This document shows, in pieces, positions 44,000 to 55,364 of a stretch of 64,000 nt of DNA (its first letter is position 1; each line of letters begins with the position of its first letter). Location of the stretch: positions 60,709 to 124,708 of the forward strand of contig NZ_CM002299.1 in NCBI RefSeq assembly GCF_000153125.2. Direction: 5' to 3'. Both the position numbers and the translations under genes were made by a program. Origin of the DNA: Congregibacter litoralis KT71. GTDB lineage: Bacteria > Pseudomonadota > Gammaproteobacteria > Pseudomonadales > Halieaceae. The notes beneath the pieces were generated by a model. It was not told the origin of the DNA. It did not search any database and saw only the letters and a list, made by a program, of their open reading frames with translations.

Positions 44000-45229
44000 A
44001 TGGCCCAGCAATCCCTTGAAAAAAGCAAAATCCGCATCCTGTTGTTGGAGGGCGTGCACCCCTCGGCCATTGAAACCCTCAATCGTGCGGGCTATTTCAA
44101 TATCGAACATCACAGCAAGTCCCTGCCTGCGGAGGAACTGAAGGCAGCGATTGCCAATGCGCATTTTGTGGGTATCCGCTCCCGCACCCAGCTGAGCGAA
44201 GACATTCTGGATGCGGCACCGAAGCTCATCGCCATCGGCTGCTTCTGCATCGGTACCAACCAGGTAGATCTTGAGGCCGCGACGCGCCGGGGCATTGTGG
44301 TCTTTAACGCGCCCTTCTCGAACACCCGCAGCGTCGCCGAGCTGGTGATTGCCGAGGCGATTCTCCTCCTGCGGGGCCTGCCGGCAAAGAACGCCGCAGC
44401 CCATCGCGGAGAGTGGCAGAAGTCCGCCGCCAACTCCTATGAAATACGCGGCAAACGCCTGGGTATTATCGGCTACGGCAATATCGGCATGCAGCTGGGG
44501 GTTATTGCCGAGGGTCTCGGGATGCGGGTGCAATTCCACGATGTGGTTAATCGCCTGCCTCTGGGCAACGCACAGCAGGTACTGGGTCTGGATTCATTGC
44601 TCGCCAACTCTGACGTGGTGAGCCTTCACGTACCTGAAACAAGCTCCACGGAAAACATGATCGGCGCCCGGGAACTCGCCCTGATGCCCGAGGGGAGTAT
44701 CCTCATCAACGCGTCGCGCGGTACCGTCGTGGATATCGACGCTCTCGCCGCCGCATTGGAAAGCGGTCACATCAGTGGCACGGCGATCGACGTGTTCCCC
44801 GTGGAGCCCCGGTCCAATGACGATGAATTCCTGTCGCCCCTTCGGAACTACGACAATGCCTTCCTTACCCCCCACGTGGGCGGCAGTACCATGGAAGCGC
44901 AGGCCAATATCGGTGGCGAGGTTGCCGAGAAACTGTCCCGCTATTCTGACAACGGTACGACCACCAGTTCGGTTAATATGCCTGAAGTGGCGTTGCCGGA
45001 ACATGATGGCAGTCACCGTTTACTCCATATTCATCGGAACGTTCCTGGTGTGATGGGTGCCATTAACAACATTTTTTCAGATATTGGCGTCAATATCGCT
45101 GCACAATACCTGCAGACCAATGAACACGTGGGTTATGTCGTGATCGACATCGATGCTGAATACTCGGAAGTCGCCCTCGAGAGATTGACGGCGCTGGAAA
45201 CCACATTACGGTGTCGGGTACTGTTTTAG
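44000..45229 (+). CDS. serA: D-3-phosphoglycerate dehydrogenase
   Basis: SerA (409 residues) starts serine synthesis by oxidising 3-phosphoglycerate. KIRILLLEGVHPSAIETLNR begins the chain; VGIRSRTQLSEDIL and IGCFCIGTNQVDL carry substrate residues; RLGIIGYGNIGMQLGVIAEG binds NAD; the catalytic Arg is in INASRGTVVDIDALA, and the His in LTPHVGGSTMEAQ. The C-terminal ACT domain (NVPGVMGAINNIFSDIGVNI) is the serine sensor of the E. coli-type enzyme. The promoter region is shared with the divergent dehydrogenase gene, so joint regulation is possible. Confidence 0.95.
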   Translation: MAQQSLEKSKIRILLLEGVHPSAIETLNRAGYFNIEHHSKSLPAEELKAAIANAHFVGIRSRTQLSEDILDAAPKLIAIGCFCIGTNQVDLEAATRRGIVVFNAPFSNTRSVAELVIAEAILLLRGLPAKNAAAHRGEWQKSAANSYEIRGKRLGIIGYGNIGMQLGVIAEGLGMRVQFHDVVNRLPLGNAQQVLGLDSLLANSDVVSLHVPETSSTENMIGARELALMPEGSILINASRGTVVDIDALAAALESGHISGTAIDVFPVEPRSNDDEFLSPLRNYDNAFLTPHVGGSTMEAQANIGGEVAEKLSRYSDNGTTTSSVNMPEVALPEHDGSHRLLHIHRNVPGVMGAINNIFSDIGVNIAAQYLQTNEHVGYVVIDIDAEYSEVALERLTALETTLRCRVLF

Positions 45230-46626
45230 ACAACCGCAGGGACAGTGTTTTTAAAGGGGGTCGTGGGGCCTTCCTACACTGTTTTGCCGCATGCAGGCTG
45301 GCGTGCATCACCGCCGCTCTGACTACTTTTGCGCCCTTGTCGGTCGCGCAGTTTGTCGACGGTGATGGCACCCAGTGCTGCTCCTCCCTCAACCCCCAAT
45401 ATCCTGCGCCTACCTATTACGGCGCGAGCATGTTTCGGGACGACGATCCCCGCGCTGCGGCAAAGTTTCTTATTGCCGAGCCCATGGATCCGCCGGCGCC
45501 TTCCAAAGAACTACTGGAAGTTCTGGAACAGCAGGAGCTGGACAACGGACCCATGTCCCCTACCCTCGCCCCCACCATGGAGAATCTGGGTGCCGCCTAT
45601 CTTGCGGAAGGTCGTGAGCGGGAGGCGTTGAAAGCCTTCAGCCGTGGCGTCCATCTTGCGCGGGTGAATGGCGGACTCTATACCCCGGCTCAGATCGCCA
45701 TGCTCGAGCAGATCATTTCCATCCATGTACGCAATGGCAACTACGCAGCGGCGGATGATCAGCAGGCGTATCTTTACCGGGTCAAGCGCTTCGGGCAGCA
45801 GCACTCGGGCAACGACGAACTCCGTGAGGCCACGCTGCGCTACGCCGACTGGATGCGCGGCGTCTACCTGGGCGATATCGACTATCAGCGCTTCCCAAGA
45901 CTGGTAGGCATCAATGATCTCTACGATGAGGCCATCGACGAAATCGTGGCCGATCAGGGCGAAACAAGCGCGGAACTCCTCAGCTACCTGGACGGGAAAA
46001 TTGCCCTGTCCTATCTCGTATCCGTTTACCCCGGAGAGCGGGAAACGGGCTTCCGTGCCTCCGCCGCCCCCCTGGCGGGCTTTGACGTCGCGAGCGAAGC
46101 GCAGTTGCGCTTCTGGCGGTTGCAGGAAAACAACTTCCGCTACGGACTGGAGTCCCTCCAGCGGAAAAAGGCGGTCGTCGCGGCGCAAGCGGATAGCAGC
46201 CCGGAGGATAAGGCCAACGCCCATCTCGCCATTGCAGATTGGTATCAGTGGCATCGCCGGTACGCGCCGGCAGTACGCATTTACAAAGAAGCCTGGGCTA
46301 TCATGGCAGGTAAGCCCGGCAGCGAAATCTGGTTCGAAAAAACCTTTGGAGAACCCCTGGAACTGCCGGAAGAAACGGTCTTCAATCCCGGCGCTGTGCC
46401 CGTAGGGACCACAACCCTGGCGGAGGTGGTTATCGACTTCTCGGTCTCGCGACACGGCGAGGCCGTGAATATCGATATCGCCACGGACGCCACCGGTGAA
46501 GACGCCAAGTCCGCAAAAAACCGCGCTTACAAATACCTGCGCAGCATACGCTTCAGGCCCCGCCTTGAAGATGGCAAGGTGGTTATGGCGGAGAATATGC
46601 AGCGGACCTACAAGATAAGGTACTGA
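45211..46626 (+). CDS. Exported TPR protein with TonB-like C-terminal domain
   Basis: A 471-residue protein of mixed make-up. After a GTG start inside the serA 3' end, an N-terminal signal-like segment (CRLACITAALTTFAPLSVAQ) precedes two adjacent cysteines. The middle, about residues 95-390, has TPR-like helical pairs (APTMENLGAAYLAEGREREA, ANAHLAIADWYQWHRRYAPA). The last 75 residues (LAEVVIDFSVSRHGEAVNID ... SIRFRPRLEDGKVVMAENMQ, RTYKIRY) have the strand-helix-strand pattern of the TonB C-terminal domain, but there is no membrane anchor with a proline rod. I think it is periplasmic and may contact a TonB-dependent receptor. The GTG start is the only in-frame candidate that keeps the signal. 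It is 2 bases before the next gene. Confidence 0.65.
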   Translation: MSGTVLDNRRDSVFKGGRGAFLHCFAACRLACITAALTTFAPLSVAQFVDGDGTQCCSSLNPQYPAPTYYGASMFRDDDPRAAAKFLIAEPMDPPAPSKELLEVLEQQELDNGPMSPTLAPTMENLGAAYLAEGREREALKAFSRGVHLARVNGGLYTPAQIAMLEQIISIHVRNGNYAAADDQQAYLYRVKRFGQQHSGNDELREATLRYADWMRGVYLGDIDYQRFPRLVGINDLYDEAIDEIVADQGETSAELLSYLDGKIALSYLVSVYPGERETGFRASAAPLAGFDVASEAQLRFWRLQENNFRYGLESLQRKKAVVAAQADSSPEDKANAHLAIADWYQWHRRYAPAVRIYKEAWAIMAGKPGSEIWFEKTFGEPLELPEETVFNPGAVPVGTTTLAEVVIDFSVSRHGEAVNIDIATDATGEDAKSAKNRAYKYLRSIRFRPRLEDGKVVMAENMQRTYKIRY

Positions 46627-46628
46627 CC

Positions 46629-47804
46629 ATGGCGGCGAGTCCTGAGCTGAAACAAGTCATCGTTGAGTCCCAGACACTGCTGCGGCAGGGCGATGCCCGC
46701 GGTGCCCTGGCGTACCTGCAAAGCCTGGCACCTCAGCTGGGCGGTCACGTGGACTTCCACATGAATGTCGCTATTGCCCATCGCAATCTGGGGCAGCTCG
46801 CTTCCGCCATCAAAGCCCTGAACGCCGCGCTGGCCATTGACCCCTATGCGTTTATGCCCATGCTGTCCAAGGGCGCGATTCTTGAGCAGATGGGTGATTT
46901 AAGAACCGCAGCCGAGGTCTATAAGGACGTATTGCGTATCGCCCCGGGCGACGCGGAACTGCACGACTCCCTCCGTCCGCCCCTTGCCCGCGCCCAAACG
47001 GTGGTCAATGAGCAGGCCGCGGCGATGGCCGCACATTTTCGCGATACCCTGGGCCCCTTGATGCAGGAGCATCGAGGCGAGCCCCTGGCACGCTTTGAAG
47101 AATGTATGGATGTGGTGGCCGGCGTAAAGCGGGTGTACAACGCAGAGCCCGTGCAGGTGCATTACCCCCGCCTTCCCGCGATACCGTTTTTTGATCGCAG
47201 TTACTTTCCCTGGTTTGAGACTCTCGAGGCCGCCACCCAGACCATTCAGGGTGAGCTCAAAGCACTGATGGAAGAGGGCTTGCCCGGGTTCAAGCCCTAT
47301 GTGCAGTACGCACCGGGCACGCCGGAAAATCAGTTCAAGCCGCTGAACCACTCGGACAACTGGAGCTCGCTGTGGCTATGGAAGGACGGCCAGCCCCAGA
47401 AAGAAGCCATGGCCCGATGCCCGGAAACCACCGCCGTGCTCGAACAACTCCCCCTCGCCGATCAGCCGGATTTTGCACCGACGGCGCTGTTTTCGGCACT
47501 CGCCCCGCACACGAAGATACCGCCCCATACGGGTTCCACCAACACCCGTCTGCTGGTGCACCTGCCTCTGGTACTACCCGGGCCTGCGGGCTTTCGTGTG
47601 GGAAATGAAACACGGGAATGGCGCATCGGCGAAGCCTGGGCCTTTGATGACACCATCGAGCACGAAGCCTGGAACGACGCCGATGAGACCCGGGTCATCA
47701 TGATCTTTGATATCTGGAACCCGCTCCTGAGCGCCGCAGAGCGCAGCATGATTTCTGCGCTGCTCGGTGCCCATCGTGACTGGCTGGTGGGCGCCGGGGG
47801 ATAG
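46629..47804 (+). CDS. TPR protein with aspartyl/asparaginyl beta-hydroxylase domain
   Basis: A 391-residue cytoplasmic protein. TPR repeats occupy about residues 5-125 (HMNVAIAHRNLGQLASAIKA, MPMLSKGAILEQMGDLRTAA). From about 180 the sequence is of the AspH (aspartyl/asparaginyl beta-hydroxylase) family of 2-oxoglutarate oxygenases: SALAPHTKIPPHTGSTNTRL has the first iron histidine near residue 300, and GEAWAFDDTIEHEAWNDADE the second near 345, with RVIMIFDIWNP following, the arginine binding 2-oxoglutarate. Bacterial members hydroxylate lipid A or protein/peptide Asp/Asn; TPR-fused forms probably act on proteins. It is coupled to the preceding gene (2-base gap) and converges with the sulfotransferase gene. 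Confidence 0.85.
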   Translation: MAASPELKQVIVESQTLLRQGDARGALAYLQSLAPQLGGHVDFHMNVAIAHRNLGQLASAIKALNAALAIDPYAFMPMLSKGAILEQMGDLRTAAEVYKDVLRIAPGDAELHDSLRPPLARAQTVVNEQAAAMAAHFRDTLGPLMQEHRGEPLARFEECMDVVAGVKRVYNAEPVQVHYPRLPAIPFFDRSYFPWFETLEAATQTIQGELKALMEEGLPGFKPYVQYAPGTPENQFKPLNHSDNWSSLWLWKDGQPQKEAMARCPETTAVLEQLPLADQPDFAPTALFSALAPHTKIPPHTGSTNTRLLVHLPLVLPGPAGFRVGNETREWRIGEAWAFDDTIEHEAWNDADETRVIMIFDIWNPLLSAAERSMISALLGAHRDWLVGAGG

Positions 47805-47819
47805 CAATAGAAGCGGCGG

Positions 47820-49400
47820 CTAGTCGCTTACCTCTCCTCCCGCGCTCTTCAATCGCTGACGGAGATCATCAAAACGGGCACCGCCACGCGCCGCCACACC
47901 CAGGGAGTCGCGATGAAGGGGCGGCAGGACTTTTGAAGCACTCAACAGGGTGTTTATGGACGCCACATCCGGATCGAGCATTCCCTCTTCAAACGCCAGA
48001 TCGCAAAAGTCCAGCATGCGCCGCGTCGATCCCTCGCTGTCGGTGACCAGCTCCTCATAGCGCACATCGAGAATGCTCCCGGGAAACAGACTGTGCCAAT
48101 GCTCCATCTGCGCCCGATAGCTGAGGTAGTAATTCACCAGCTCATCAAGATTGTAGGAATAACTGTGTGCACCAAACACCAGGGTTTTGTACGCCGAGTA
48201 AAGCGTATCCAGGGGGTCGCGATGCATATGAATGATTTTTGCGCCGGGCAGGGCGGTGAGAATATGCCCGCAGTACAGAAAGTTGAAGGATGTGCAGTCC
48301 ACAAAGCGCGGGCCATCACCAACGCGTTCCCGGGCCGCCATGCTGTAGCGCCGGCCCAGCTCGGCAAAATCGACGGCCAGGGTCGCCTCGGCGTCCGAAA
48401 CCTCCGCGGGCGCCGCATCCTTGGCGAGGACACCGAGGAATCGCCGAAAATGCCCCAACTCCCCCCCTGGCGTGATCGCACTGTGCTTTGCGAGGACACG
48501 CTCGACCAGGCGTAAGCCCGTGCGGGGCATGCCCAGGACAAAAATCGGTCCGGGTTCTTCTGCACCCCGCGTCAACGATGCAAGCCGCGATGCGTCAAAG
48601 GTATCGCGGATATCTTCCTGTGCACCCAACTCCACCGCCTCATCGTAGTTCACCAGCTTGCGATAGGTTTGTGCGCCAGCGTCATAGGCCGCAAACGACT
48701 CTTTGTAATCACCAAGGTCCTCAAACTCCTTAGCCATGGCGTAGCAGGCAATGGCCGTGAGGAGTGGCTCCGTGGATTTGCGAATAATATTTCGAAGGGC
48801 TTGAATGTGATTGTTGTTTTCGGACCAGCGTCGCAACTGCGAACGCAAATGTAGCGCTCCGGGATCCGTTGGCGATTTCTCAAGGACTTGCGCCAGATGC
48901 TTTTCGGACTCGTCCGTTAAATCCAGCTGCGCCTCGGAAACGGCGAGCAAATACAGTAACTGCTGACTATCAGGGTTCTTGTCCCGGGCGATGAGGAGAC
49001 AGTTTCGCGCCTCCTTAAGCTGACCAAGCTCCGTAAAGGTTTGGGACAAGGCCGCCAGCTCCGGCTCCTTTGCTTCGAGTAAATCCACCGCCCGGGCACA
49101 GTTCAAAGCCCGCTGGGACTGACCCGCAAAGAGACAGAGCTGCGCTTTGCGCAACAAAATGCGCGGACTATCGGCAAGGTCCTCGGGGAGGGCATCAAGA
49201 TGACGTAAAGCTGCGATTGCATCTCCCCGCAAACTTTCAACATCCGACGCCAGATAACGCACTTCAAGCTGCTCAGGAAAGCGACGCAAAAGCTCCTGGG
49301 CCACAGCATCGGCGTCTTCCAGTTGTCGAGCCTCGATAAACTGCGAACCTTCGTTGAGCAGATCCTGCAAGCTCGCCTCGCTTTGGGAAGTGGTGTTCAT
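47820..49400 (-). CDS. TPR-sulfotransferase fusion
   Basis: A 526-residue protein with TPR repeats over about residues 10-250 (VAQELLRRFPEQLEVRYLAS, LLYLLAVSEAQLDLTDESEK) and a sulfotransferase domain from about 285. The 5'-phosphosulfate loop is IFVLGMPRTGLRLVERVLAK, the 3'-phosphate site AKIIHMHRDPLDTLYSAYKT near residue 390, so it should use PAPS. These TPR-sulfotransferases are common in marine gammaproteobacteria and alphaproteobacteria; their acceptors are unknown, and tyrosyl-protein, peptide or glycan sulfation are possible. No signal peptide, so it modifies something in the cytoplasm. It is 24 bases behind the oxygenase gene 49425-51257, and both are on the same strand. Confidence 0.88.
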   Translation of the reverse strand: MNTTSQSEASLQDLLNEGSQFIEARQLEDADAVAQELLRRFPEQLEVRYLASDVESLRGDAIAALRHLDALPEDLADSPRILLRKAQLCLFAGQSQRALNCARAVDLLEAKEPELAALSQTFTELGQLKEARNCLLIARDKNPDSQQLLYLLAVSEAQLDLTDESEKHLAQVLEKSPTDPGALHLRSQLRRWSENNNHIQALRNIIRKSTEPLLTAIACYAMAKEFEDLGDYKESFAAYDAGAQTYRKLVNYDEAVELGAQEDIRDTFDASRLASLTRGAEEPGPIFVLGMPRTGLRLVERVLAKHSAITPGGELGHFRRFLGVLAKDAAPAEVSDAEATLAVDFAELGRRYSMAARERVGDGPRFVDCTSFNFLYCGHILTALPGAKIIHMHRDPLDTLYSAYKTLVFGAHSYSYNLDELVNYYLSYRAQMEHWHSLFPGSILDVRYEELVTDSEGSTRRMLDFCDLAFEEGMLDPDVASINTLLSASKVLPPLHRDSLGVAARGGARFDDLRQRLKSAGGEVSD

Positions 49401-49424
49401 GTCAATCCTCAGGTAAGGAGCCCA

Positions 49425-51257
49425 TCAGGCTCCGGGGAGTAAATCGAAGGCCACGGTTATACGCGGCTGATGGGAATGAAAAGGCAGGGTGCCGTGCCAC
49501 ATATAGGATGGGAATAGCACCAGGGTGCCGACCACGGGTTTGACGACGCGACGGGGAGCAAGATCCAGTCCCAGCTCGATCATGGGTGTGCCAAATTGAA
49601 TATGCCCCTCGGTGCCCTCACCCTGCTGCACCTCATCGGGTAGAGAAATATACAGCGCCGAACTCACCCAGCCTTCGGGATGAATATGGTTGGCATGGTA
49701 GCCCTGATCCCGGAGACGCACAGACCAGGCACCTGCCATACGTAGGTCCCGGGCTCGCTGAGGGCGGGTATTGCGACACCAGAAGGGGTGATCTTCATCG
49801 GTGGGCATGGTTTGCAGCGCACTGGCAATAGCGAGCTGCAACTGGGTCTCCAAACCGCGGAGGAGAGACTCCTTGAGTCGGAACAAAAAACCGTTGGTCT
49901 GGGTGCCGCCGCGAACACTTTGCTCGATAGGCTGGGCGTTGCTGTGATGCAATCCCTCAAGGACTCGGGTGAGCTCGGCAAAATAAGCCTCCCGCGTCGC
50001 ATACTCCGGCGGCGCAGGCACCTCTACGGGCACCACCATGCGTTGGTAATCCAGGAGCCAGTCTTCCCGGGGGTCACCCAGAAGCTGCAGGGCCGTGCCA
50101 CGATAGGCCAGCAAAGTCTGATCAAAGGGCGCTTTGAGCAACCACTGTGCGCACAGGCTCTCGGCGCGTTCCGCTTCCTTGCAGCGCAGTAGCTGCATTG
50201 CGTAATAGTGTTGGACATAGCTGTCATCGGGATTGGCGAGGCTGATCTGTTCCAAGCGGTTCAGAGCCTCACTCTTTTCGCCCCGCTGAGCCATATCCAG
50301 GGCGCCCAACACCTGCAGACTGGGCGTCTCGGGACAGCCCAGACGCTGGGCGTCCCGGAGGGTTTCTTCCACCCTGGACTCCTCGCCCAAACGCTTCATG
50401 AGCTGCACGAGGGTCTGCCACAGGGCCGGGTTGCGAGGCTCCCGCTTCACCGCCGCGCGCAGCTTCTCCAGATGATCGCGCTGTGCACCGGAACTGAAAC
50501 TCAATTGCGCGGCGGTGCGCTGGAGCAAGGGATGCCCCGGAAAGCGCTCCACCCCCGTATTGGCACAGGCCAGGGCCGCCTCTATGTCGCCGGCATCGAG
50601 CAATGCCTCAGCCCTGTTGCGATAGAGATCCGGTTGATCAAAGCCCAGCTTGAGCGCCTGCTCATAGGCCGCGGCAGCTTCCACAAAGTCACACTCCTGA
50701 CGCAGGAGCTGCGCGAGGGAGTAATGAAGCCGGGACGCCTTGGGGTTGTGCCCGATGCCCTGCCGGCAGAGCGCCAGGGCCTGCGCCACGTCGCCCTGCT
50801 TCTGGGCAATCGCCGCCGCAAGCTCCCAAAGAGGCGGCGCCTGGGGGGCAAGCTCCGTTGCCTTGGTGATGCAACGCTGAGCCTCTTGCCAGGACTCCTG
50901 CTGGTAATGCAGTCGTGCCAGCGCCTGCCAGACTTCCGGCGAATTTGGCGCGCCGGCCAGGGCCTGTTGAAGCTGATCCTGAGCCTCGGCAAAACGTCCC
51001 TGGTTCCGCAAAAATGTTGCGTAAGCCAACATAGCCTGCGGCTGTCCCGGGGATGCCGCAATCGCCGCCCGAAAACTCCCGTCGGCTCCCACAAGATCAC
51101 CAGACTGCTGCTGCCCCAGGGCCAGAAGCTGCAGGGCATTGGCCTCTCCGGGCATCTGCTGGAGGAGCTGCTGGCATAACCTCGCACAGTCTGCCCCTTT
51201 GCCAGCTCGCAGCATCTGGTGGGCCTGTTGCAATGCCTGACGGTAATTCGGGTTCAC
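49425..51257 (-). CDS. TPR protein with 2OG-Fe(II) oxygenase domain
   Basis: A 610-residue protein with at least eight TPR-like units over about residues 5-400 (MLRAGKGADCARLCQQLLQQ, LLAYATFLRNQGRFAEAQDQ-type pairs) and a C-terminal 2-oxoglutarate oxygenase of the PF13759-like class. DQGYHANHIHPEGWVSSALY has the iron His residues near 524 and 526, GTLVLFPSYMWHGTLPFHSH the distal histidine near 588, and QPRITVAFDLLPGA the arginine for 2-oxoglutarate. No signal peptide. It stands 24 bases before the sulfotransferase gene, same strand, and 503 bases from the receptor gene. Hydroxylation of a protein or peptide is the likely reaction. Confidence 0.87.
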   Translation of the reverse strand: MNPNYRQALQQAHQMLRAGKGADCARLCQQLLQQMPGEANALQLLALGQQQSGDLVGADGSFRAAIAASPGQPQAMLAYATFLRNQGRFAEAQDQLQQALAGAPNSPEVWQALARLHYQQESWQEAQRCITKATELAPQAPPLWELAAAIAQKQGDVAQALALCRQGIGHNPKASRLHYSLAQLLRQECDFVEAAAAYEQALKLGFDQPDLYRNRAEALLDAGDIEAALACANTGVERFPGHPLLQRTAAQLSFSSGAQRDHLEKLRAAVKREPRNPALWQTLVQLMKRLGEESRVEETLRDAQRLGCPETPSLQVLGALDMAQRGEKSEALNRLEQISLANPDDSYVQHYYAMQLLRCKEAERAESLCAQWLLKAPFDQTLLAYRGTALQLLGDPREDWLLDYQRMVVPVEVPAPPEYATREAYFAELTRVLEGLHHSNAQPIEQSVRGGTQTNGFLFRLKESLLRGLETQLQLAIASALQTMPTDEDHPFWCRNTRPQRARDLRMAGAWSVRLRDQGYHANHIHPEGWVSSALYISLPDEVQQGEGTEGHIQFGTPMIELGLDLAPRRVVKPVVGTLVLFPSYMWHGTLPFHSHQPRITVAFDLLPGA

Positions 51258-51283
51258 AGGGGCTGTAGGGTCCTTTCGATCAT

Positions 51284-51660
51284 TAATGGGTCATCGCGAC
51301 GCCAGCGAAGAAGGCGTGACTTGCGGAGCGAGCGTCACCCGCCAAAGCGAGAGTAGCAAGTCGCGCCTGATTCGCGGATTTGTGCGCGTCCTAGCGGACT
51401 ATTTTAAAGCCAAACCCATGGTAATAGTCGCCAACGAAGGCCAACTTACTCCATTCGCTGGATTGGGGGGACGCTCATTGCGTAACTTGCCCCTCGTTGG
51501 CTTACTTCTCTCGCTAGTGGGGGGGGACGCTCGTTACGTAAATTGCCGCTCGCTGGCTTACGCACGGACCTTGCCAACTGCGGTCAGCTCAGTGGACGTG
51601 GTTTGCGAAGCGAGCGTCACCCAACTTAGCGAGTGCAGTAAATCGCGGCTACTGAGCTGA
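51284..51660. repeat. Patch of diverged direct repeats
   Basis: An AT/GC-mixed stretch with no convincing gene but clear internal repeats. Copies A are at 51328-51365 and 51610-51647 (both begin GCGAGCGTCACCC; 30 of 38 bases match). Copies B are at 51465-51505 and 51521-51561 (both begin GGGGGGACGCTC and end GGCTTAC; 36 of 41 match), 56 bases apart. GACGCTC in B is the reverse complement of GAGCGTC in A, so A and B may be opposite-orientation members of one family. An open frame through it (51286-51660) has repeated SVTRQSESSKSRL-like text, as expected of translated repeat DNA. Probably a dispersed intergenic repeat. The rest of the 503-base gap holds a terminator. Confidence 0.7.
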
Positions 51661-51695
51661 CCAGCCTGACGTCAAAGGTTGGCCAACGTTCAGGC

Positions 51696-51722
51696 AAAAA
51701 AAAGGGCCGACAATGTCGGCCC
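51696..51722 (-). terminator. Intrinsic terminator of the TonB-dependent receptor gene
   Basis: Read on the minus strand, GGGCCGACATTGTCGGCCC followed by eight T: an eight-base-pair stem with a short loop. It lies 38 bases after the receptor stop and closes that transcript. Confidence 0.93.
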
Positions 51723-51760
51723 TTGGGTTCTGCAAGGCGGGGATATACCCCGCCAAGGGA

Positions 51761-54625
51761 TCAGAACTGGATCGTACCACCCAGGAACCAGTACTGGCCC
51801 AGGGGATCGTAGATACCGGGGTAAGTGTTACCGTTCTCACGAGCGGTTACACCCTGGTATACGAAGGGAGGATCTTCGTCCAGCACGTTGTTGATACCGA
51901 AGCGCAGAGTCGCGGTGTCGGTAACAGCCCAGGTTGCTGAGATATCGAAGTAGTTGAAATCGTCGATATCGTTAGGCACGTCGGTGAACTCCTGCGTAGA
52001 TCCAGCGACATGACGCCAGATAATGTTCGCATTCACGTTCCAAGGAGTCGCCCAGGTAGCCTGGAAACGATTCTTCAGATCGGGAGTTGGGATCTGACAT
52101 GCACCACCGTAGGTGCCTTCACAGCCAACCACGCCCGCACCAGGATATTCTTCCTGATCGTAGGCCAGTACAAAGCCCGCGATGTTGGCGATGTTAACGG
52201 TACCCATGTCGCCGATATCGAAGTTGTAGTTGATCTCAACGTCGACACCTTCAACCAGCAAGAAACCGATGTTGGTGCTGGCGGCGTTAATGCCGTTAGT
52301 CGGACTTGCCTGACCCAGCCACAAGGTGTCGAGCTGACCACGATTAACCTGGTCACAGAACGCTGCATCACCCGTCTCGATACACTGGAGGAGAGTCGTC
52401 TCTTCCTGAATACCCTGGATGGCGCCAGTGATTTCGATTTCGTAGTAGTCAACGCTCAGCTGAAGGCCTTCGATGAAGCTAGGCTGCCAGATTGCACCCA
52501 GGGTGTAAGTATCAGCCTCTTCGGGCTCGAGTTCCGTAGAACCACCGCCGGTAGAGTTGTACTGCGCCGCAGGGCTATCTTCCGGACCACCTTGATCCCA
52601 GATTGCGCGAGATACACCGGAACGAGCACACTGCTCAAAGGTGTAGCCGCTCAGGCTGAGGTTGTCGCCCGGGTTGGCCTTATTACAGGGGTCACGGTCC
52701 ATAGCGAACAGACCTGCACTATCCGGCTCAAACAGATCAACAATGTTCGGCGCACGAACGGCGCGCTGGTAGCTACCGCGAACCTTGATGTCGTCGTTGA
52801 TATCCCAGCTGGCAGCAATCTTGTAGGTATCAGTCGTGTTACCCGTGCTGTAGTCAGAGTAGCGGAAACCAAGATCCAGCACCAAAGCCTGCACAAGCGG
52901 CGCATCTTCGATGACAGGAACGCTGGCCTCGAAGTAGATCTCGTTTACGTCGTAACGACCGTCAACGGGAACAGGTACACCGAATCCGCCGGCATCGCCA
53001 CGAGCAGCGTTGTCAGACAAACCATAGGTCAGGCTCTCTTCGCGGTATTCCGCACCGGCAACAATCTCAATACCGCTTTCCGCGAAGGGAGAAGCAATAC
53101 CGTAGTCACCGAGGCTGCCCTGGACATAACCCATCAGAACTTCCTGAGTGGTGCGGCCGTTCTCATAAACTACCTGAGAGAAGTAAGCAGTCGCCTCGTC
53201 AGTAACGCCACCTGTCTGATAGACATTGTAGGGAACACACTCGCTGTTGCCAGACTCACAGCCGATGGTGCCATCATCATTGACAACCGCGTTCAGTGCT
53301 TCTTCAACACGGATCAGGTCAACATAGTTGGTGTTACGGTTGGTCATGTTCACTTCAGCGTACTGATACGACACGTCGTAACGCCAGGAGTCGTTGATGT
53401 CGCCACGAAGACCGAACACACCGCGGTAAGTCGTGTGACGCAGAGCACCCTTACGTGGGCCACCCTCTACGTTACGACGACCGAGAGTTGCGCTGAATCG
53501 ATCATCAGGTGATGTACATCCGGCAACACCCAACTGCTGTGCGGACAGAAGCGGGTTGTCACAGTTCAGGTCATCAAACGTTCGGAAGAACACACCGGAG
53601 GGACCAAACTGCGTGTCGGACTTGGTGTCCATGAACATCAGCTCGGTGTACGCCTCTACGTTCTCGTTGATGTCGTAGTGAGCAAAGGTGCCCATGGTGG
53701 TACGACGATCAGGACGCTGGAAGAAAGACGGCGCGGCAAAGTTAAAGCCGGGGCCACGACCTTCCAGGAACTCGTTTCCTTCGGTGCGGTAGTTGGTGCC
53801 ACCGATGATCCAGGAGCCGGACTGGTTGGTACCGGAACCCAGACACTCGCCGCTGCTTCGTACAGGACAGGCAGAAGTGTCACGAGCCGCCTGTGTAACA
53901 CCTTCGATATCACGATAGGTCAGGAAGGCAGTAGCGTTACCACGACCGTTGTCGAAGTTGCCACCCATGATCATGGTCATGTCGTACTGGTCACCGTCTG
54001 TAGCAGTGCCCGTCGCGAAGGGCTGGCCCGCACGCTCGGCAGCACCGGCTACCAGACCGCCGTCGTTGTCAGCGCGGAATTGACCGGCCTGAACGTCAAG
54101 CTTAATACCTTCGAAATCATCAATCATGATGAAGTTAACAACACCCGCTACAGCGTCGGCGCCGTAGGTGGATGATGCACCACCGGTCAGTACTTCGACG
54201 CGCTCAATCAACTGACCTGGGATCAGGTTGATGTCCGCAGCGTTAGACGCGCTGTTAGGTGAACCAGCAGGCAAACGACGTCCATTCATCAGTACCAGCG
54301 TACGCTGGGAACCGAGGTTACGAAGCTGGAGGGTAGCAGTACCCACGGCTTCAATAGCCTGACCAGACGACTGATCGAGAGAGATAGCTGGAATAGCGGC
54401 GAGGGCATCCTCGACACGAGTCAGGCCGGTGAAGCGAAGCTGTTCCGCATCGAGCTGAGTAACTGGGCTTGAAGAGACGAGGTTGGCACGCTGAATACGC
54501 GAACCGGTTACGACAACTTCTTCTACCAGCTGCTCATCCTGGGCGTTGACCGGAGCCATTCCCATCGCGAACGCTGCGCCGACGGCGGCACTGACCGCCA
54601 TCGTTAGCGGTTTTTTATGCAACAT
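51761..54625 (-). CDS. TonB-dependent receptor, cysteine-pair-rich
   Basis: A 954-residue outer-membrane receptor. Signal peptide to about residue 28 (AVSAAVGAAFAMGMAPVNAQ), TonB-box-like QLVEEVVVTGSRIQRANL, plug domain with LGSQRTLVLMNGRRLPAGSP and ERVEVLTGGASSTYGADAVA, and a long barrel ending in DPLGQYWFLGGTIQF. It belongs to the class with SPVTQLDAEQLRFTG-type plugs frequent in Alteromonadales and Halieaceae. Six cysteine pairs with short spacing lie in barrel loops (e.g. CPVRSSGEC, CESGNSEC, CIETGDAAFC, CEGTYGGAC), suggesting disulfide-closed external loops. The minus-strand TGTGTAATAT near 54700 is a possible extended -10. The gene is monocistronic (terminator behind it), but next to the TPR-oxygenase and -sulfotransferase genes. 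Confidence 0.93.
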   Translation of the reverse strand: MLHKKPLTMAVSAAVGAAFAMGMAPVNAQDEQLVEEVVVTGSRIQRANLVSSSPVTQLDAEQLRFTGLTRVEDALAAIPAISLDQSSGQAIEAVGTATLQLRNLGSQRTLVLMNGRRLPAGSPNSASNAADINLIPGQLIERVEVLTGGASSTYGADAVAGVVNFIMIDDFEGIKLDVQAGQFRADNDGGLVAGAAERAGQPFATGTATDGDQYDMTMIMGGNFDNGRGNATAFLTYRDIEGVTQAARDTSACPVRSSGECLGSGTNQSGSWIIGGTNYRTEGNEFLEGRGPGFNFAAPSFFQRPDRRTTMGTFAHYDINENVEAYTELMFMDTKSDTQFGPSGVFFRTFDDLNCDNPLLSAQQLGVAGCTSPDDRFSATLGRRNVEGGPRKGALRHTTYRGVFGLRGDINDSWRYDVSYQYAEVNMTNRNTNYVDLIRVEEALNAVVNDDGTIGCESGNSECVPYNVYQTGGVTDEATAYFSQVVYENGRTTQEVLMGYVQGSLGDYGIASPFAESGIEIVAGAEYREESLTYGLSDNAARGDAGGFGVPVPVDGRYDVNEIYFEASVPVIEDAPLVQALVLDLGFRYSDYSTGNTTDTYKIAASWDINDDIKVRGSYQRAVRAPNIVDLFEPDSAGLFAMDRDPCNKANPGDNLSLSGYTFEQCARSGVSRAIWDQGGPEDSPAAQYNSTGGGSTELEPEEADTYTLGAIWQPSFIEGLQLSVDYYEIEITGAIQGIQEETTLLQCIETGDAAFCDQVNRGQLDTLWLGQASPTNGINAASTNIGFLLVEGVDVEINYNFDIGDMGTVNIANIAGFVLAYDQEEYPGAGVVGCEGTYGGACQIPTPDLKNRFQATWATPWNVNANIIWRHVAGSTQEFTDVPNDIDDFNYFDISATWAVTDTATLRFGINNVLDEDPPFVYQGVTARENGNTYPGIYDPLGQYWFLGGTIQF

Positions 54626-54881: not shown

Positions 54882-55364
54882 TCAGTCGACGACCTGCGTG
54901 ACACCAATGCTCTTGTCGACATCGACCAGGGTCATCTTGAAAAAGCCCGCCCAGTTCTTGTTGATAATGACCTCGGGGTTGGCAGGACCGCGGTAGGGAT
55001 AACGACCGGACAGTCGCTGCTTCCAGACCTGGCCGTTCTCCAGGCGGAAAATGGTTTTCCCGGTCCAGCCCGAGAAATCACCCACAATACGACTTCTTAC
55101 CTCGTAGTTCTTTTTTGCCTCGCGCACCTCACTGGTCGCCTGGAGCACCTGCGCGTCTCCTGCGGTGTACTGGATCAGCCACTCCGTGAGGGCATCCAGC
55201 TCCTTACCCGAGAGCTTGTCGAGACCTGTGTTTTCGAACTCTTCCACGGTCATCAGTTTTTTAAAACCGGGAAAGTCGTCTTCGGCGGCGAGGGTGCCGG
55301 ACCCGCCGGCTATAAGAAGTGCACCCAAAAAGACGCGGTTGATGCTGTTGGTAAGGGCAGACAT
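54882..55364 (-). CDS. Small exported protein, unknown function
   Basis: A 160-residue protein with a signal peptide (SINRVFLGALLIAGGSGTLA) ending near residue 27. The mature part begins with acidic and Lys residues (EDDFPGFKKLMTVEEFENTG), contains GKELDALTEWLIQYTAGDAQ and a core VGDFSGWTGKTIFRLENGQV followed by RYPYRGPANPEVIINKNWAG. The end TLVDVDKSIGVTQVVD is plausible for a small beta-barrel (SH3- or OB-like) domain, typical of bacterial exported proteins of unknown role. It does not match a named family that I recognise. It stands alone, divergent from the marC-like gene. Confidence 0.75.
   Translation of the reverse strand: MSALTNSINRVFLGALLIAGGSGTLAAEDDFPGFKKLMTVEEFENTGLDKLSGKELDALTEWLIQYTAGDAQVLQATSEVREAKKNYEVRSRIVGDFSGWTGKTIFRLENGQVWKQRLSGRYPYRGPANPEVIINKNWAGFFKMTLVDVDKSIGVTQVVD

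Follow-up and report, generated by a model that had tools for sequence, protein, structure and literature searches.

Why should genes for TPR proteins carrying hydroxylase, oxygenase and sulfotransferase domains lie beside the gene of a TonB-dependent receptor (TBDR), and what might their products modify? The question is raised by a locus in the genome of Congregibacter litoralis KT71 (4.35 Mb, one contig), located in a window of 64,000 nucleotides, by which we mean the whole stretch of DNA that was analysed.

Gene content and layout of the locus

Domain searches confirmed the original prediction of TPR genes with AspH, PF13759 and sulfotransferase domains near a 954-residue TBDR. According to gene and domain annotation, the cassette is flanked by serA and marC and includes the following features:

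45211–46626, + strand: TPR protein with a TonB-like C-terminal region and a hydrophobic N-terminus (PF13424 24.5 bits, cut-off of 30.1 not reached)
46629–47804, + strand: TPR-AspH, TPR repeats plus a PF05118 hydroxylase domain (144.6 bits)
47820–49400, − strand: TPR-sulfotransferase (ST; PF13469 135.1 bits), open reading frame intact, P-loop and Lys motif lost
49425–51257, − strand: TPR oxygenase (OG) with a PF13759 2OG-Fe(II) domain (81 bits), His/Arg core kept
51702–51724, − strand: terminator-like hairpin 3' of the receptor gene, 10 pairs followed by a T run
51761–54625, − strand: TBDR, 954 aa, 12 Cys (PF00593 100.8 bits, PF07715 68.8 bits)
54882–55364, − strand: duf160, 160 aa, hydrophobic N-terminus, no Pfam or NCBIfam match

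A gap of 2 bases separates the TPR/TonB-like gene from the AspH gene. Genome-wide, PF13759 and PF05118 occur in one gene each, the two being neighbours. The hairpin after the receptor gene suggests that OG and ST probably form their own unit here, apart from the TBDR, although terminator-like sites overall were not more numerous in the scan than in shuffled sequence. Both plug and barrel domains are present in the receptor, whose description as cysteine-rich holds only modestly (12 Cys in 954 residues). The putative secreted partner duf160, which travels with the receptor, was absent from the earlier account of this locus.

N-terminal hydropathy, a crude measure rather than a trained predictor, separated the products into two groups: the TBDR, duf160 and the TonB-like protein have hydrophobic N-termini and are probably exported, while AspH, ST and OG have none and so probably act in the cytoplasm. 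The TonB-like C-terminus proposed for the first protein is plausible but weak. PF03544 was matched, under its cut-off, by 4 of 9 C-terminal pieces from the family and gave no match for the window copy; the structure model ends in a strand-strand-helix-strand arrangement with a mean pLDDT of only 65.6, and no TonB fold was found among its structure matches, which listed mainly TPR proteins.

Conservation within the host family

Among 140 sampled genomes of the host family, 64 contained AspH relatives (E ≤ 1e-25) and 45 the cassette TBDR type (E ≤ 1e-120). A close receptor orthologue, defined as a TBDR match at E ≤ 2.6e-237, was present in 32 genomes. In 27 of them (hand count) AspH lay no more than 5 kb away on the same contig; of the remaining five, two carried AspH elsewhere (G141, G138) and three had no AspH match at E ≤ 1e-25 (G250, G160, G152). 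The closest AspH on a named contig, among those found in a search that possibly excluded records of the host's own genome, belonged to gamma proteobacterium NOR5-3 (69% identity).

In the 39 family-level AspH regions fetched (against 64 positive genomes, and including two contigs labelled Woeseiaceae), genes within 9 kb of AspH comprised TBDR in 32, duf160 in 26, ST in 20 and OG in 18, with seven regions having none of the main partners. The duf160 gene adjoined a receptor of the window type in most family loci fetched and was not detected in the DNA examined for the Woeseiaceae cassettes. Some lineages displayed accessory genes, namely a methyltransferase, a transglutaminase-TPR lipoprotein, FecR with a second TBDR, and a small lipoprotein. 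Seventeen genomes (hand count) in a set of 23, chosen partly for cassette presence and therefore not unbiased, carried a PF13759 gene whose frame spans at least 535 codons, and in all 17 this gene was within about 7 kb of a strong PF05118 gene.

Recurrence outside the family

A less biased sample was obtained from AspH matches at E ≤ 1e-40, present in 14 of 369 genomes of the class and 29 of 398 genomes of the phylum, from which 48 AspH regions were analysed, the window's own locus and one G255 fragment being excluded. Expectations were calculated from ST matches and first-look TBDR candidates, on the assumption that genes are spread evenly over genomes of rounded size. ST was found within 9 kb of AspH in 17 of the 48 loci against 1.13 expected (maximum of 400,000 simulations 9), and TBDR in 18 against 7.52 expected (P = 1.3e-4). 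Both were near AspH in 14 loci, and eight loci from eight genomes (two pairs of which fall in one family each) combined ST, TBDR and a PF13759 oxygenase, the latter in its TPR form in five and in a short form in three (L085, L089, L090). Of the 48 AspH loci, all outside the family, 26 had no partner nearby, which argues against a fixed unit.

When the phylum was searched with OG instead, this gene was detected in 27 of 398 genomes at 33 places, with a TBDR within 9 kb at 21 of them (15 of the 27 regions newly retrieved, and 6 earlier ones) and AspH at only 6. OG and AspH co-occurred in 14 of the 398 genomes (Fisher P = 4e-11, or 3e-10 without the host genome, kinship not corrected).

Gene order was also retained at a distance. 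L074, L076 and L080 all have the TBDR-OG-ST series convergent with AspH, although their AspH shares only 31–32% identity with that of the window; PF13661 oxygenase genes lie between these genes in L074, and a gene of similar size stands at the matching place in L080. Loci L008 and L011 carry an AspH-ST-OG-TBDR set in a different context, and their copies nest among Halieaceae copies in all four gene trees (exact sister varying, some supports low), which fits movement as a block, although both come from metagenome bins and may be mislabelled. In an AspH tree of 91 rows built by a quick method, cassette loci were spread over the deep clades, and the presence of a TBDR neighbour changed state at least 17 times.

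A chance neighbourhood of unrelated TPR genes would agree with their position on both strands, which had been raised as a sign of chance, and with the terminator-like site between TBDR and OG-ST; TBDRs are moreover numerous, so that a TBDR neighbour taken alone is common. The placement on both strands is largely answered by the convergent order conserved in the three distant loci, and both the ST enrichment and the recurrence of the set in other contexts and orders refute the chance explanation, which we regard as extremely improbable. Co-occurrence with receptors of the window's subclass had been put forward as a check across genomes, and the outcome was positive both in the family and in the wider sample. 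The recurrence of the cassette and its link to TBDRs are more than chance.

Properties of the three enzymes

The two metal-binding His and the residues by which human AspH binds 2OG are all present in the PF05118 domain of the cassette AspH, with catalytic residues H300, R307, H311, H345 and R355 kept. Human AspH, the aspartate/asparagine beta-hydroxylase (PDB 6yyu, 5jqy, 5apa), was its best match over both domains, sharing fold, TPR plus catalytic layout and active-site residues; the structure model could be fitted over both domains, TPR preceding the catalytic domain, with a different inter-domain angle (rmsd 12.8 over 308 residues). Unlike human AspH, the cassette protein is bacterial, has no hydrophobic N-terminus and is linked to a TBDR, and the human-type EGF consensus is absent from the window's cassette proteins. 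The lipid hydroxylases LpxO and OlsC have the PF05118 fold in common with it but differ in that the cassette protein has a TPR domain and scores far under the cut-offs of both NCBIfam equivalogs (OlsC 99.8 bits, cut-off 450; LpxO 60.2 bits, cut-off 500). Known substrates of human AspH are protein domains. For a TPR-AspH of human layout a polypeptide is the most natural substrate reading, with hydroxylation of Asp or Asn predicted, and to this extent the original proposal that a protein or peptide is modified gains support.

In OG, the conserved His and Arg of the catalytic core were present in 26 of 26 aligned sequences. This core is shared with PF13759/TIGR02466 proteins (PDB 2rg4, 3bvc), from which OG differs by its long TPR fusion; its score against TIGR02466 was 45.3 bits, under the cut-off of 62.5.

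The sulfotransferase presented a different case. The window copy has lost the Thr/Ser hydroxyl pair of the PAPS loop, where GLR is found, as well as the conserved Lys, with DC in place of DK. The roles of the P-loop Thr/Ser pair and of this Lys are those established in TPST. These losses render sulfation doubtful in the host genome, where ST is probably not catalytic judging by its motifs, and active sulfation was rejected as the default reading; of the three chemistries first proposed, the sulfation is thus unsupported here. Its sequence showed weak similarity to that of a protein-tyrosine sulfotransferase (PDB 8w5z; E = 0.0017). Enzymes of that kind, including RaxST, which acts on RaxX, are likewise of PF13469 type; the cassette ST differs from them in its TPR fusion, in the degenerate motifs of the window copy and in that no RaxX-like precursor was seen.

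Search for a substrate

Comparison of 24 receptors with AspH and 5 without it disclosed no convincing Asp or Asn position tracking AspH presence, the best being N284 (0.88 with versus 0.40 without). No Tyr or Ser/Thr position was found to track AspH or ST presence, and contrasts for OG in this comparison were confounded with clade. One EGF-type consensus match was noted in a receptor of L095.

Small ORFs in the gaps between cassette genes were examined in 22 regions, and none among the matches listed stood out as a conserved precursor; those listed consisted mainly of fragments of known genes, frames antisense to them, and the SapC and PF13661 genes. Neither maturation, protease or export genes nor lipid genes were seen among the cassette genes identified. 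The host genome encodes at least 33 TBDRs.

Possible functions of the cassette

Probable cytoplasmic enzymes, TPR domains on all three of them and an AspH of human layout together make modification of a polypeptide before export the most economical reading. We tentatively favour, without rating it as probable, a conserved receptor-linked cassette for TPR-guided polypeptide modification before export, acting most likely on the receptor precursor or on the secreted partner duf160. TPR domains would hold the unfolded polypeptide in the cytoplasm, AspH would hydroxylate Asp or Asn and OG another residue, and the modified product would then be exported. Where relatives have retained the ST motifs, their sulfotransferase would add sulfate, whereas that of the host genome may be undergoing decay or serve as a binding scaffold. 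As the non-enzyme component common to cassette variants, the receptor is the leading substrate candidate, and duf160 ranks second; the choice of these two also reflects that no precursor-peptide gene stood out.

The enzymes could instead modify a lipid or small molecule, like LpxO and OlsC, to which AspH has the sub-cut-off similarity given above; sulfotransferases, too, often act on small molecules. Against this stand the TPR domains on all three enzymes, human AspH as the best two-domain match and the lack of lipid genes among the recognised cassette members, and we consider it decidedly unlikely. Action of the hydroxylases in trans on a range of proteins, several TBDRs among them perhaps, with receptor adjacency being regulatory or historical, would accommodate both the AspH genes standing alone in 26 of the 48 sampled loci and the large number of TBDRs in the host; the tight linkage to one receptor lineage within the family speaks against it, leaving it unlikely.

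Rather doubtful, too, is a scenario in which a small peptide from another part of the genome is the target of the enzymes and is imported or sensed by the receptor, as in lasso-peptide loci. TPR enzymes and a receptor would suit peptide handling, and in a published list (PMC10040529) an aspartyl beta-hydroxylase and sulfotransferases bear cluster numbers next to that of a lasso-peptide B2 protein, a numbering that we take to indicate adjacency. The results for precursor ORFs and for maturation, protease and export genes in the cassettes weigh on the other side.

Pre-export modification of the receptor or its partner could extend further, in that cytoplasmic TPR-guided hydroxylases (human-AspH type, PF13759, PF13661) and sulfotransferases may form a widespread proteobacterial system that marks a TBDR or a secreted partner, tuning ligand binding or phage/bacteriocin recognition; we regard this generalisation as possible but somewhat doubtful. 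If the receptor or its partner bears hydroxyl or sulfate marks, bacterial outer-membrane proteins would gain a layer of post-translational control absent from the literature found, exerted by an enzyme that shares the layout of human AspH. The cassette would also offer a bacterial setting for asking what TPR-AspH recognises, and might give a function to many TPR oxygenase and sulfotransferase genes that at present have none. The receptor linkage is solid, and the gene set is a concrete one in marine bacteria.

Relation to described systems

The enzymes come from known families and stand here in a recurring, receptor-linked arrangement. In the literature searched, with subscription papers largely outside it, we found no description of the gene combination, its TBDR link or its spread, nor of hydroxyl or sulfate marks on TBDRs.

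TBDR accessory clusters with SapC exist, such as the nix genes of Xanthomonas. SapC likewise adjoins some of the cassettes (L011, L074, L076), and is not found among the cassette genes of the window. Distant relatives add PF13661 oxygenases, some of them matching Ofd1_CTDD, together with SapC, and the cassette may therefore be one of a broader set of TBDR accessory clusters.

Sulfotransferase decay or loss and accessory genes of the cassette

The TPR-sulfotransferase gene was found in different states across the window and related loci of other genomes. Its motifs were degenerate in the window copy (47820-49400, minus strand) and in L006, the gene was absent from L007 and L041, and the motifs were intact in L008-L011 and L042-L044, a distribution indicating decay or loss of the sulfotransferase within one lineage.

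The 500-base spacer separating the PF13759 oxygenase gene from that of the TonB-dependent receptor carried a near-identical 20-base sequence twice (51321-51340, this copy with one mismatch, and 51603-51622). The chance expectation for such a pair was 0.01 for the whole window, and the two copies are perhaps a repeat element.

Oxygenases of the PF13661 type adjoined the cassette in L074, L075, L080, L091, L098 and L127, some of them with Ofd1_CTDD matches, and SapC (PF07277) was present in L011, L074 and L076. Within 21 kb of Proteobacteria bacterium SZAS-87 (L012), the AspH-type hydroxylase gene was accompanied by several receptor copies, three TPR-sulfotransferases and two short PF13759 oxygenases.

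In several cassettes of the window's family (L047, L049-L052, L054-L056 and others), the gene for the 160-aa protein was adjoined by a FecR gene and a second TonB-dependent receptor. A small lipoprotein family (L052:11568-11921 and relatives), sharing the two-cysteine motif CK..I.TGTRIG.RVCK, was located near the receptor in several loci.

Neighbouring cluster numbers 1738-1748, as they appear in Table 2 of PMC10040529, comprise lasso-peptide B2, nucleotidyltransferase, sulfotransferases, aspartyl beta-hydroxylase, PqqD and asparagine-synthase-related proteins; judged from these table entries, a hydroxylated or sulfated lasso peptide is a possible product.
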